DNA of 64,000 bases, taken from contig JACPYM010000109.1 in NCBI GenBank assembly GCA_016196035.1, positions 1-64,000 of the forward strand. The letters run 5' to 3'. The DNA is from Acidobacteriota bacterium. GTDB taxonomy: Bacteria > Acidobacteriota > Blastocatellia > RBC074. Position numbers and translations under genes: made by a program. Of the stretch, positions 9,033 through 13,842 are shown piece by piece (positions within the stretch are counted from its first letter, which is position 1; each line of letters begins with the position of its first letter). The notes under the pieces were generated by a model. It was given only the letters and a program-made list of their open reading frames with translations, did not search any database and had not been told where the DNA came from.

Positions 9033-9875
9033 TTACGGTTGCCGCGCCAGCACGACTTCGCGCCGCCGCCGCGCAAAGTCGAAGAGCGCGGGTTGTTGCG
9101 TCTTGCCCTCCGCCAACTCGCGCGGGTCGAAGGTGCCGCGCAGGCATCCGTCTTTCATCTCAGCATACAACTGCGGCACGCGCTCGACGCCGTAGCCCAG
9201 CCATTCCGTCAGCAGGATTTCATGGTCGCGCGGCTTGTAATCGGCCTGCCAGGCCGTAAGCCCGTCCACCAGCAGCGCGCGCATCAGCAAACCCAAGCCG
9301 CCCTTTTCCAGCGCGACGTTGTCGGCTTGCGTCGCCGTCAGGATGCGCATGCCTTTGTCATACGACAACTGCCCCAGGCCGCGGCTGCCCATCGGCCCCG
9401 GTTTGAAATCGGTGCCCTCGATGGCCGCCGCCGAGTGGCAGGCGTCTACGATCAGCACCAACTCGCCCGCGTCTACGTCGCGCAGCCAGCGCGACAACTC
9501 ATCCGACGAGATGCAACGGCGGCGGAACTCCGGCGACTTGAGGTCAGCCGTACCACTGTCCGAGGCGACGAGATAAAAGATGCCGTCGCTGTCGGAGTAG
9601 CCGTGACTCGACGCCGAGATCAGCATCAAATCTTCGGGTCGCGCCGCGCGCAATTTGTCCGCGTTGGGAATCTGTTTGAGCAAGGCCGCGTCCAAGTCCC
9701 TGTCTGGCTGCCGCCCCGCCAGCACATCCAGCACGGCGCGCAGATGCGCTTTCGTAGCGGTGTTTTCGGTGACGCGCTTGCCCGGCGCGTACTTCCTCGA
9801 CGGTTGCATCGTGCGCACGTCCGCGAGGGTTACGATGTAAGTTGCCTGCGCAGCATATTGAGAGAAAAACGCCAT
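9033..9875 (-). pseudogene. Caspase-family (peptidase C14) fragment, 5'-truncated
   Basis: The frame encodes the second half of a metacaspase-like domain. The catalytic His sits in LISASSHGYSDSDG and the catalytic Cys in LVLIVDACHSAAA, followed by GPMGSRGLGQLSYDKGMRIL. The usual beginning (first strand, a conserved R, and often long WD40 repeats) is missing. The frame opens from a TTG at 9947 or an ATG at 9875, and neither has a good ribosome site. I read it as the 3' portion of a larger gene cut off when the adjacent plus-strand radical SAM gene arrived or by deletion. Expression of a short active form is possible but less likely. Confidence 0.65.
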
Positions 9876-9946
9876 TCCGATTGGCGTAACGAAAGCAACG
9901 CTGTATAGTCCGCCGCGTACCGAGTCAATTGCCAGGAGGCGGTTCA

Positions 9947-11359
9947 ATGCCCATCAATTCTTCAATCCCGATTATCTCTGCGGAGTTGTTTACCATCCCG
10001 CTGGAAGACAACCGATACGTTGTTTATGCGCCGTTGCGCCGTGCCGCTTTTGTCGCCAATGCCAGCGTGGTGAATCTGCTGGCCGATCTCAAGGCAGGCT
10101 GCTTCGATCAAGCCGCTGACCACGACGGCTCGCTGGTCGAATTTCTGCGACGGCTCGAAATCCTCGACGCGCCGCCGGAACAACGGCCCATCACCGAATT
10201 CAGCGGCGACCCGGAACCGACCTCCGTCACCTTGTTCCTGACCACGGCTTGCAATCTACGTTGCACCTATTGCTACGCTTCAGCAGGCGACACGCCGACG
10301 AAGCACATGCCGCTCGATGTCGCCAAACGCGGCATTGATTTCGTAGCGGCCAACGCAGTCAAAAAGGGGCTGCCGGAATTTGAGATTGCCTATCACGGCG
10401 GCGGCGAGCCGACAGTCAACTGGCGCGTGATGACGGAATCGCTCAAGTATGCGCGGGAGAAGGCCGCCGCGTTGAACCTGGAAGTGCGCGCCGCCTCCGC
10501 CTCGAACGGCGTGCTCAGCGACACGCAGATTGATTGGATCATCGCCAATCTGCACAGCGTCAACATCTCGTTTGACGGTCTGCCGTCGGCGCACGACAAA
10601 CATCGGTTGACCGTGCTGGGGCAAGGCTCCAGCCATTTGGTCATGCACACGATTCGCCGCTTCGACAAAGCGAAGTTCCCCTACGGTCTGCGGGTGACAG
10701 TCACGCGAGATCAGATTGCGCAACTGCCGGACTCCATCGAATTCATCTGCGCGAATTTCAACGTCGAGAGCATACAGGTCGAGCCTGCTTATCAATTGGG
10801 GCGCTGGACAACCGCGCCCTCGGCTGAGACCGATGAGTTCATCGCGGCCTACCGCGAAGCCCAAGCGCGCGCCCAAGCGCACGGACGCGCGATCAGCTAT
10901 TCCGCCGCGCGCCTGGGACTGCTGACCAATCACTTCTGCGGCATCACGCAAGACAGCTTCGCGCTCTCGCCGGACGGCAACGTGTCGTCTTGTTACGAAG
11001 TCTTTGCGGAAGACAACCCGTGGGCGAAGGTCTTCTTTTACGGCGTGCCGGAGCCGGAAGCGGGCAAGTACCGCTTCAATCTGCCTGTGCTGAACAACCT
11101 GCGCGGCCTGGCCGTCCAGCACCGCGAATTCTGTCAGGGCTGTTTCGCCAAGTGGTCGTGCGCGGGCGATTGTTATCACAAGGCCTTGACCATCAGCGGC
11201 ACTGAAGAGTTTCAAGGCTCAGACCGCTGCCACATCACGCGCGAGCTGACGAAGGATCAGATTCTGGAAAAGATTGCCGCGTCGGGCGGGCTGTTTTGGC
11301 ACGAAGGGCGCTTGGCCGATGAGAACGCGATTGCGAAAGGAAAGGAGTTGTTTGTATGA
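9947..11359 (+). CDS. Radical SAM / SPASM domain enzyme
   Basis: 470 residues from the ATG at 9947, placed by AGGAGG seven bases upstream. The N-terminal 90 residues (YVVYAPLRRAAFVANASVVN) look like the small leader-binding-type domain found on peptide maturases. The radical SAM cluster is TACNLRCTYCYA (Cys 102, 106, 109). GGGEPT is the SAM-binding glycine motif. A SPASM region follows: FCGITQDSFALSPDGNVSSC, FCQGCFAKWSCAGDC and DRCHIT, enough cysteines for auxiliary Fe-S clusters. Such enzymes modify peptides or proteins (thioether, C-C or other crosslinks). It overlaps the next gene by 4 nt (ATGA), so that protein is the prime substrate candidate. Confidence 0.9.
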   Translation: MPINSSIPIISAELFTIPLEDNRYVVYAPLRRAAFVANASVVNLLADLKAGCFDQAADHDGSLVEFLRRLEILDAPPEQRPITEFSGDPEPTSVTLFLTTACNLRCTYCYASAGDTPTKHMPLDVAKRGIDFVAANAVKKGLPEFEIAYHGGGEPTVNWRVMTESLKYAREKAAALNLEVRAASASNGVLSDTQIDWIIANLHSVNISFDGLPSAHDKHRLTVLGQGSSHLVMHTIRRFDKAKFPYGLRVTVTRDQIAQLPDSIEFICANFNVESIQVEPAYQLGRWTTAPSAETDEFIAAYREAQARAQAHGRAISYSAARLGLLTNHFCGITQDSFALSPDGNVSSCYEVFAEDNPWAKVFFYGVPEPEAGKYRFNLPVLNNLRGLAVQHREFCQGCFAKWSCAGDCYHKALTISGTEEFQGSDRCHITRELTKDQILEKIAASGGLFWHEGRLADENAIAKGKELFV

Positions 11360-13146
11360 AGATCGAAAGACCGCAATTTGAGTTGACACGAGTGTATGCG
11401 GATGGAACCAGAGAAGCGCCGGAGATTGTGCCAGTAACACAGATGCCTTGGGATACCAAGATGGAAAGGCGCGGATTTCTGGGCGTGGGGGTAGGAGTGG
11501 CATCAGTGCTGCTACTGGTTGACGGGAAGGCAACGGCACAAAGTGCGGGCGGTCAGCAACAATCCGGCTTAAACAACGACAAAAAAGTATTGCCAACGCG
11601 CGTGCCTTTCTTAACCCTAAGGGCACATGGTGAAGCCGTTCGCGCCTTAGTGATAAGTCCTGATCGAAAAGTTTTAGCCTCCAGTTCTCTGGATAGCATG
11701 ATCAAGATATGGGCAATACCGGAGGGCAAGCTACTTGCTACTCATGAAAGTAAAGACTTGTTGGATAGTAAGGCCTTGGCAATTAGCCCCGACGGAAAGA
11801 TTTTGGCCTCAAGTGGGATTGTAGCCACTAAATTATGGGCATTACCAGAAGGCAAGCTCTTGGCCGCTCTCAAAACTGATTGGCTGACGGAGGTACTGGC
11901 GTTTAGCCCCGATGGAAAGACATTGTTCACGTCAGGCAGCATAAAGGGAATCATTCAGTTCTGGCAGGTTCCCAGCAATAAACTTTTGAGCACGCTTAAG
12001 GTTAGCAATGAAGCGTCAGTCCACTCCTTAGCGATTACCCCAGATGGAAAGACACTGATTGTTGGCCTCCATGATGGAGCTATTCAGTTTTGGGCCTTAC
12101 CGGAACGTAAGCTCCTGGCAACCATTAAGGGGCACGAAAAGTATGTTTCAATGCTGGCAATTAACTCCGATGGAAAATCCTTTGTTTCGAGTTCTTGGAG
12201 CGACGACAGCATCAAATTATGGTCTCTGCCGGCAGGTAAACCCCTCGCAACTATTGCTGAAGAAAACAACCGAGTCACAGCACTAGCCATTAGTCCCGAT
12301 GGAAAGACGCTGGCTAGTGCTGACAAATTCCATAAGATCAAGTTATGGTCTTTGCCTGATGGTAAGTTGTTAGGCAATATTGCTGCTGGGCTCGGAAATG
12401 GAAGGGAGGTCAAGGCATTGGCAATCAGTTCTGATGGAAAGATGTTGGTATCGGGCGACAGTGATGGCGTAATCATTTTATGGGATCTGGAACAGCGATC
12501 TTTCCTCACATTCTTATTTGACCCCAAGTCAAATGCGAATGATGCGCTCATCTTCAACGTATACGACAGCATTACGAATCAACCCATTACTTATACTCTG
12601 CCTTGTGGCTCACCTATTCCCCCAGGAGCGGTTTGCACGTGTAACTGCGTTCCTGGAACTTTCAACTTGCCAACTTCCGGAGGTGGCGGAGGTGGCGGAG
12701 GTGGCGGAGGTGGCGGTGGCGGAGGTGGCGGAGGCACGATATGCACGTGCAACAAAGTCTGCACCTGCATTCCTGTGCCTTCTGACCGCGCCATCAAAGA
12801 AGCCTTCGAGACCACCGACCCGCTGCTGATTCTGCAACGCTTGTCCGAACTGCCCATCCAAACCTGGAACTACAAGTGGAATGACGCTGCCATCCGCCAC
12901 ATCGGGCCGATGGCGCAAGACTTCGCGGCGGCCTTTGCCGTCGGGGAAGACGACAAACACATCTGCCCGGTGGATGCGCAGGGCGTCGCCTTGGCGGCGA
13001 TTCAGGGGCTGTACCGGATCGTGCGCGAGAAAGACGCCCAAACCGCCAGCTTGCAGGCGCAGTTGCAACGCCAACAGGCGGAGAATCAGGAACTGAAAGC
13101 CCGACTCGAAGCACTGGAACGTTTGGTCAAGCCGCTGGTGAAATGA
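11356..13146 (+). CDS. Tat-exported WD40 propeller with Gly19 linker, Cys clusters and S74-type chaperone domain
   Basis: 596 residues. Order: a 36-residue leader-like extension; a twin-arginine signal (ERRGFLGVGVGVASVLLL, Arg 38-39); about seven WD40 blades (residues 90-390, repeated ISPDGK and KLW motifs); a Cys motif (PCGSPIPPGAVCTCNC); 19 consecutive glycines (442-460); a second Cys motif (TICTCNKVCTCIPV); a Peptidase_S74-like intramolecular chaperone (SDRAIK, Ser476/Lys481, then IRHIGPMAQDF and GVALAAIQGL); and a coiled coil. S74 domains trimerise and self-cleave in tail fibres. The gene is translationally coupled to the radical SAM enzyme, which suggests modification of the Cys/Gly region. 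The start could also be the ATG at 11461, just before the Tat motif. Confidence 0.85.
   Translation: MKIERPQFELTRVYADGTREAPEIVPVTQMPWDTKMERRGFLGVGVGVASVLLLVDGKATAQSAGGQQQSGLNNDKKVLPTRVPFLTLRAHGEAVRALVISPDRKVLASSSLDSMIKIWAIPEGKLLATHESKDLLDSKALAISPDGKILASSGIVATKLWALPEGKLLAALKTDWLTEVLAFSPDGKTLFTSGSIKGIIQFWQVPSNKLLSTLKVSNEASVHSLAITPDGKTLIVGLHDGAIQFWALPERKLLATIKGHEKYVSMLAINSDGKSFVSSSWSDDSIKLWSLPAGKPLATIAEENNRVTALAISPDGKTLASADKFHKIKLWSLPDGKLLGNIAAGLGNGREVKALAISSDGKMLVSGDSDGVIILWDLEQRSFLTFLFDPKSNANDALIFNVYDSITNQPITYTLPCGSPIPPGAVCTCNCVPGTFNLPTSGGGGGGGGGGGGGGGGGGGTICTCNKVCTCIPVPSDRAIKEAFETTDPLLILQRLSELPIQTWNYKWNDAAIRHIGPMAQDFAAAFAVGEDDKHICPVDAQGVALAAIQGLYRIVREKDAQTASLQAQLQRQQAENQELKARLEALERLVKPLVK
12679..12735 (+). 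repeat. In-frame GGCGGAGGT-type minisatellite
   Basis: A 9-bp GGA-GGT-GGC unit repeats in tandem, with one interruption, to encode 19 glycines. Repeat copy number could vary by slippage in multiples of three residues without breaking the frame, changing linker length between the two Cys clusters of the WD40 protein. Confidence 0.85.
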
Positions 13147-13198: not shown

Positions 13199-13450
13199 AT
13201 GACTACCACAATGGAAGCCGTCTTCGAACAAGGCGTATTGCGTCCGCTCAAGCCGCTGGACTGGGCTGAAGGAACGCGTGTCGAACTCACAGTGGTGACG
13301 GCGATGCCTGCGCGACAGCCTTACGAAATCCTGTCGGCCATCGCCGCGCTGCCGCTGGAAGTCACGCGCGAAGAACACGCCGGACGTGACCACGACGGCT
13401 TTCTATACGGAGGGCTTTATGGCGGGCAGGAGGGCGAGGAACAGCCATGA
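13199..13450 (+). CDS. DUF104 / AF2212-type antitoxin
   Basis: 83 residues. The opening MEAVFEQGVLRPLKPLDW followed by EGTRVELTVV is the standard DUF104 antitoxin beta-barrel. AAGGA lies upstream of the ATG. It overlaps the PIN toxin by 4 nt and should neutralise it and repress the pair. Confidence 0.88.
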   Translation: MTTTMEAVFEQGVLRPLKPLDWAEGTRVELTVVTAMPARQPYEILSAIAALPLEVTREEHAGRDHDGFLYGGLYGGQEGEEQP

Positions 13451-13842
13451 TCTTCGTGGACACCGGCGCTTGGTTTGCGATGTCCGTGCCGTCAGATCAA
13501 GACCACGCCGCCATCGCTCAATGTTTCAGCCAGACTGCGGAACCGCTATTCACCACCGACTATGTAGTGGACGAGACGTTGACGCTCTTGCGCGCACGCG
13601 GCTACGGTCAGCGGGCTTTGGCCTTGGGCGCGGAGTTCTTCAGCGGTTCTATTGCCGAGCTTCATTACCTTGACGAAGACGAGATACGAGCGGCTTGGGA
13701 AGTCTTTCGCCGCTACGCCGATAAACAATGGAGCTTCACCGATTGCGCCAGCAAGGTGGTGATGGAACGGCTGCGCATCACCCAGGCCATCTCACTCGAT
13801 CATCACTTTCGTCAGTTTGGCAATCTTTACGTTTTGCCGTAG
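13447..13842 (+). CDS. vapC: PIN-domain ribonuclease toxin (VapC family)
   Basis: 131 residues. Acidic residues of the PIN active site are visible: MIFVDTGAWFA (Asp5), DYVVDETLTLL (Asp/Glu), WSFTDCAS and ISLDHHF. VapC toxins cleave tRNA or rRNA. Coupled to the DUF104 antitoxin by ATGA overlap. Length and motifs appear complete. Confidence 0.9.
   Translation: MIFVDTGAWFAMSVPSDQDHAAIAQCFSQTAEPLFTTDYVVDETLTLLRARGYGQRALALGAEFFSGSIAELHYLDEDEIRAAWEVFRRYADKQWSFTDCASKVVMERLRITQAISLDHHFRQFGNLYVLP

Follow-up and report, generated by a model that had tools for sequence, protein, structure and literature searches.

Radical SAM/SPASM maturation has so far been known mainly for small peptides and a few protein subunits. 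Among the SPASM enzymes, anaerobic sulfatase maturases (anSME) act on a large exported enzyme, but they do so without an N-terminal recognition domain and their product is formylglycine rather than a crosslink. The ranthipeptide maturases CteB (SCIFF) and PapB (freyrasin) carry an RRE-like domain fused to the radical SAM/SPASM core, and the gene for their Cys-rich substrate, in which Thr, Asn, Asp or Glu lie near the cysteines, adjoins that of the enzyme. The product of CteB is a Cys-Thr thioether, and Thr, Asn, Asp and Glu are known acceptors in ranthipeptides (PMC11002830); each link made by PapB lowers the mass by 2 Da (PMC9413430). In the quinohemoprotein amine dehydrogenase system, the SPASM enzyme QhpD needs the leader of its substrate and makes thioether crosslinks on the protein subunit QhpC in the cytoplasm, before export (PMC7876137).

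The locus described here lies in a 64,000-nucleotide stretch of DNA from an Acidobacteriota bacterium (hereafter, the window) and shares with CteB and PapB the fused enzyme architecture, the adjoining substrate gene and the residues near the cysteines. It differs from them in that the proposed substrate is usually 450-1000 aa long and predicted to be Tat-exported, with the target in a C-terminal tail far from the leader; in that C[TS]C, in units of 6 residues, takes the place of the Cx3D or SCIFF motif; and in that its scores fall below the curated cut-offs. Whereas QhpC, a small subunit, is served by a dedicated ABC exporter and leader protease, the target here is fused to a propeller and a Tat signal, and no qhp operon partners were seen at the window locus. 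No NCBIfam model covers the enzyme or the tail, and searches of the open-access literature that paired WD40 with radical SAM or with RiPP, or Tat with RiPP, turned up no description of the system; an earlier description elsewhere is possible. We see here a known kind of maturation, that of SPASM enzymes, in an apparently new use on the tail of an exported protein.

An overlapping enzyme and WD40 gene pair

The two genes overlap by 4 nt (ATGA), as an earlier note on this DNA had claimed and as their coordinates bear out (Table 1). Each has a Shine-Dalgarno-like sequence, which for the enzyme is AGGAGG, and a search of its own 9.6 Mb genome found the enzyme to be single-copy at this similarity. 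Immediately 5' of the enzyme lies a divergent caspase-like gene (9033-9947, minus strand), which scores 46 bits against the EACC1-associated type, short of the cut-off of 140, and directly 3' of the WD40 gene lie AF2212-like and PIN-domain genes (13199-13842, plus strand), an apparent toxin-antitoxin pair; both are without counterpart in relatives. The enzyme and WD40 genes are the sole genes common to the window and its closest relatives, and the flanking genes find no support as extra system parts, because no other gene is common to the window and loci L034, L042, L044 or L045.

Table 1. Coordinates of the enzyme, the WD40 protein and their parts in the window.
Feature	Position	Strand	Basis or remark
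Radical SAM/SPASM maturase, 470 aa	9947..11359	+	ATG 9947, stop ends 11359; Pfam PF04055 E 3e-11
N-terminal domain, residues 11-75, beta-beta-beta-alpha-alpha-alpha order of RiPP recognition element	9977..10171	+	predicted model
CNLRCTYC, CX3CX2C motif of SAM-cleaving [4Fe-4S] cluster	10250..10273	+	C102, C106, C109
SPASM cysteines C331, C349, C396, C399, C405, C409, C428, in SPASM motif order	10937..11230	+	seven
WD40 beta-propeller protein, 596 aa, proposed substrate (predicted export)	11356..13146	+	ATG 11356, stop ends 13146; WD40 E 4.9e-41
Leader, residues 1-35, PQFELTRVYADGTREAPEIVPV..., proposed ligand of enzyme recognition domain	11356..11460	+	conservation across clade
Twin-arginine (Tat) signal, MERRGFLGVGVGVASVLLLVDGKATAQS	11461..11544	+	R38 R39
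WD40 beta-propeller, about residues 85-415, zero cysteines	11608..12600	+	Pfam; model pLDDT mostly >90
Tail motif 1, TYTLPCGSPIPPGAVCTCNCVPG, residues 412-434	12589..12657	+	83% mean identity to clade members; tail profile A5
Gly19 spacer, residues 442-460	12679..12735	+	9-bp tandem repeat; variable in homologues
Tail motif 2, ICTCNKVCTCIPV, residues 462-474	12739..12777	+	C469, C471 invariant (22 homologues)
S74 chaperone-like domain + C-terminal helix	12781..13143	+	PF13884, 36.1 bits vs cut-off 22

The CX3CX2C motif, the seven-Cys SPASM domain and the PF04055 match mark the enzyme as a radical SAM/SPASM protein, and all ten of its cluster cysteines are invariant across 45 homologues. Its predicted model has a mean pLDDT of 90.9 and places three strands (residues 15-18, 23-28 and 33-38) before three helices (39-50, 55-58 and 62-69) in the N-terminal domain, where pLDDT exceeds 90; by fold prediction, this is a PqqD-like recognition domain (RRE). 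Profile, Foldseek and VIA-align searches agree on CteB (5wgg) as the best solved relative, with 410 residues aligned from residue 11 onward at Z 34 (VIA-align), whereas the alignment to the anSME structure 4k37 (Z 29), which has no such domain, starts at residue 90. The closest NCBIfam families are the PapB (best), Nif11-type, SCIFF and QhpD maturases, all of them below their curated cut-offs (140 versus 340 bits for PapB, 115 versus 519 for Nif11, 113 versus 425 for SCIFF and 109 versus 453 for QhpD). Together with the likeness to CteB, these matches put the enzyme close to enzymes that form thioethers, though outside every curated family.

A score so far below the PapB cut-off counts against a thioether, as the reaction could differ. 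SPASM enzymes form many bond types, and a tail modified by a sactionine, a Cys-Cys or C-C link, epimerisation or Cys oxidation would sit well with named-subfamily scores that are all below cut-off, as it would with a CxC spacing that allows very small rings, unusual for known ranthipeptides. Given that the closest matches, in sequence as in structure, form non-alpha thioethers, we regard such a different reaction as rather unlikely, if a serious alternative, and keep the thioether as the preferred reading.

Conserved leader and cysteine tail of the WD40 protein

A WD40-type partner family is present at 22 loci. Across these 22 homologues the only invariant columns are M1, R38, R39, W119, P416, C427, C429, C469 and C471; the fixed arginines of the Tat signal are followed by a hydrophobic stretch. 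The Tat model TIGR01409 matches 7 of the 22; at E 0.05 it gives no match to the window WD40 protein, where the Tat signal was read from the sequence. The earlier note's leader-like extension of 36 residues before the Tat signal corresponds to about 35 residues before R38 R39 that are conserved as a leader; RRE-dependent RiPP maturases, too, have beside their own gene that of a substrate whose N-terminal leader is conserved. Mean identity of clade members to the window protein is 54% in the leader, 32% in the propeller and 64% in tail motif 2. In the structure model, leader and tail are both predicted to be disordered.

Eight of the nine cysteines of the WD40 protein lie in the C-terminal tail. 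The earlier note had drawn attention to a Cys-Gly19-Cys segment, and its two flanking clusters, CTCNC (427-431) and CTCNKVCTC (463-471), are real and contain the four invariant cysteines; a further tail cysteine, C417, was absent from that note. The glycine run between them fared differently: at the DNA level it is CGGAGGTGG repeated 6.7 times in tandem (12678-12734, a 9-bp unit), and in homologues the spacer at this position varies freely in length and composition, from Pro-rich to absent. We rejected Gly19 as the modified segment on account of this repeat expansion and lack of conservation; it is a spacer and not a likely target.

The tail signature is TYTLPCGSPIPPGAVCTCNCVPG...CTCNxVCTC. 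Across loci, T or S occupies the middle of CxC in 184 of 243 motifs, and the commonest step from one CxC to the next is 6 residues. N, D or E often comes directly after a CxC, but in many units V takes that place, which, like the enzymes of loci L057, L051 and L041 that have no CxC partner, counts against the proposed crosslinking of the tail.

The S74 domain predicted in the earlier note holds up, as PF13884 matches above its cut-off. It begins at S476-D477, with Lys at S+5, after which a helix runs to the C-terminus. Peptidase_S74 intramolecular chaperones (endosialidase, phage tail fibres) likewise have S-D and Lys at S+5; they differ in that the domain here is attached to a Cys-tailed WD40 protein and lies outside the core system. 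Of the six other S74 places in this genome, four show the pattern S-[DS]-x-x-[FYI]-K and the remaining two were read in another frame; a PDB sequence search with the S74 part gave nothing useful. S476-D477 is the expected self-cleavage site, and a cut there would leave a tail ending in ...CTCIPVPS, which resembles the natural C-termini of other members (...CTCVPIV, ...CTCVPVYY and ...CTCVPVRRY). As a part of the core system, S74 was rejected because among the homologues read only the window's genome and one other (G235) carry it, two genera of one family; trimerisation and self-cleavage, if any, would bear only on this add-on.

Pairing of enzyme and tail across genomes

Family loci were picked by enzyme sequence alone, with relatives taken from a scan of one genome per species in many phyla, and a strict partner was defined as an ORF with at least three CxC motifs within 2.5 kb on the same strand. 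By this definition a partner accompanies 31 of the 42 family loci, some of which are close relatives (mainly Coriobacteria), but only one of the 32 SPASM loci that are less related (Fisher test, p about 1.6e-10); 11 of 3548 background ORFs have the same property. Within Acidobacteriota, a search of 396 genomes found the enzyme (E below 1e-40) in nine and the tail profile in seven, all seven lying within the nine (p about 1e-13, with relatedness not corrected for and for this one phylum only), and tail motif 1 was confined to enzyme-bearing genomes. The earlier note had coupled this enzyme to a Cys-tailed exported protein, suggested looking for their co-occurrence, and named regular absence of the partner from homologues as what would speak against it. 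Computation shows the pair to be conserved, and most exceptions are explained: three loci have partners with fewer CxC motifs (L043, L048, L082), one has its partner 4 kb away (L050) and three are cut by contig ends (L070, L078, L080), while L051 has only a leader-like ORF from which the tail is absent and no partner was seen near the L081 enzyme.

Outside these cases, the L041 family enzyme (genome G037) has no CxC ORF in 12 kb and adjoins a PqqD-like protein and two Tat-type proteins, and a match on a Salmonella plasmid (H3, 30% identity) has no CxC partner. The last two of the 11 family loci without a strict partner are L046 and L057. At L046 (7959-9458), the cassette looks decayed, with broken enzyme frames that run into the remnant of a WD40-like gene (KTVKLWSLPDGK). 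At L057 (9380-10567), the WD40 partner has the leader, a Tat signal and an HYWRPN end, with a seven-Gly run in place of the CxC tail.

It could be supposed that the genes are neighbours for other reasons and that the WD40 protein is not a substrate of the enzyme, given that binding of the leader is a prediction and that two of the nine Acidobacteriota enzyme genomes have no WD40 tail. We find this very hard to credit, as the pairing recurs across phyla amid different flanking genes with nothing else in common. Somewhat less implausible, though still improbable, is a metal-binding or disulfide-forming tail, with the enzyme acting elsewhere, such as on an HYWYPN end or on another protein: the CxC motifs of metallothioneins bind metals, and L057 retains the enzyme without CxC and ends in HYWRPN. 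Yet CxC is common to most loci, whether or not they have HYWYP, which is missing from the window protein and from its two-gene relatives, and no searched Acidobacteriota genome has the tail without the enzyme.

HYWYPN or a similar sequence ends many relatives (L035, L039, L055, L072, L083, L088, L134), and several clusters of this type contain two or three extra radical SAM genes and small PqqD-like proteins; the enzymes may modify this aromatic end as a second site, perhaps forming a cyclophane.

The substrate also varies between its two ends. In place of the propeller, the L055 partner has an SH3_3 domain, the L048 partner a PT-type linker and the L077 partner nothing, with leader and CxC kept in all three, and tail motif 2 is the only Cys motif retained in L048. 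A sister branch, mostly of Coriobacteria but also of Nitrospirae, Verrucomicrobiota and others, has small RiPP-like precursors, 96-185 aa long, in which the C[TS]C repeats recur. The conservation of leader and tail, the exchanged middle domain and the small precursors together suggest that leader and Cys tail are what the enzyme reads and changes and that the propeller is cargo; our guess is that the latter serves in binding or presentation at the cell surface. The L048 protein (9325-10383), from Actinomadura rupiterrae, has a leader, a Tat signal with a lipobox-like Cys, an acidic linker, one CTCNKVCTC and a C-terminal region like that of L049; the protein is annotated nowhere in the material examined. 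In a record from a cultured lineage, the genes carry no labels other than 'radical SAM protein', 'WD40 repeat domain-containing protein' and 'hypothetical protein'.

A proposed protein-scale maturation route

Taken together, we think it likely that the enzyme crosslinks the tail of the exported WD40 protein through thioethers, in a protein-scale version of a RiPP system. The two genes would be translated together, and the enzyme's N-terminal recognition domain would bind the leader of the WD40 protein. In the cytoplasm, the enzyme would then crosslink cysteines of the flexible tail, in its C-T/S-C-N/D/E-x-V units, to neighboring residues; the acceptor is not readable from sequence, and the bond would most likely be a non-alpha-carbon thioether of the ranthipeptide type, with a loss of 2 Da per link. 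The Tat pathway would export the protein folded and with its modification in place, as suits a reaction dependent on [4Fe-4S] clusters, and QhpD offers a precedent, since there leader-dependent thioether formation in the cytoplasm precedes export. In the window's lineage, S74 may finally cut itself off after S476. The earlier note had found a large, folded, exported substrate unusual: the protein as a whole is indeed predicted to be exported, but the folding problem is smaller than supposed, as the folded propeller need not block access to a leader and tail that are predicted to be disordered.

Whether such cassettes serve generally to furnish exported proteins with a crosslinked, RiPP-like Cys tail, with one leader-plus-tail unit, exchangeable displayed domains (WD40, SH3, linker) and sharing between phyla, we judge to be an evenly balanced question. 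The proposed chemistry makes a clear prediction, that of -2 Da steps in tail peptides, and there are culturable carriers, such as Actinomadura rupiterrae; the leader-plus-tail tag could also be moved to other proteins. The same Cys unit, found in several phyla in small precursors or on the tails of exported propellers, would tie RiPP chemistry to the export and display of proteins. If the cassettes are indeed such a general device, RiPP chemistry would give large surface or periplasmic proteins a modular post-translational finish, rather than being a route to released peptides.
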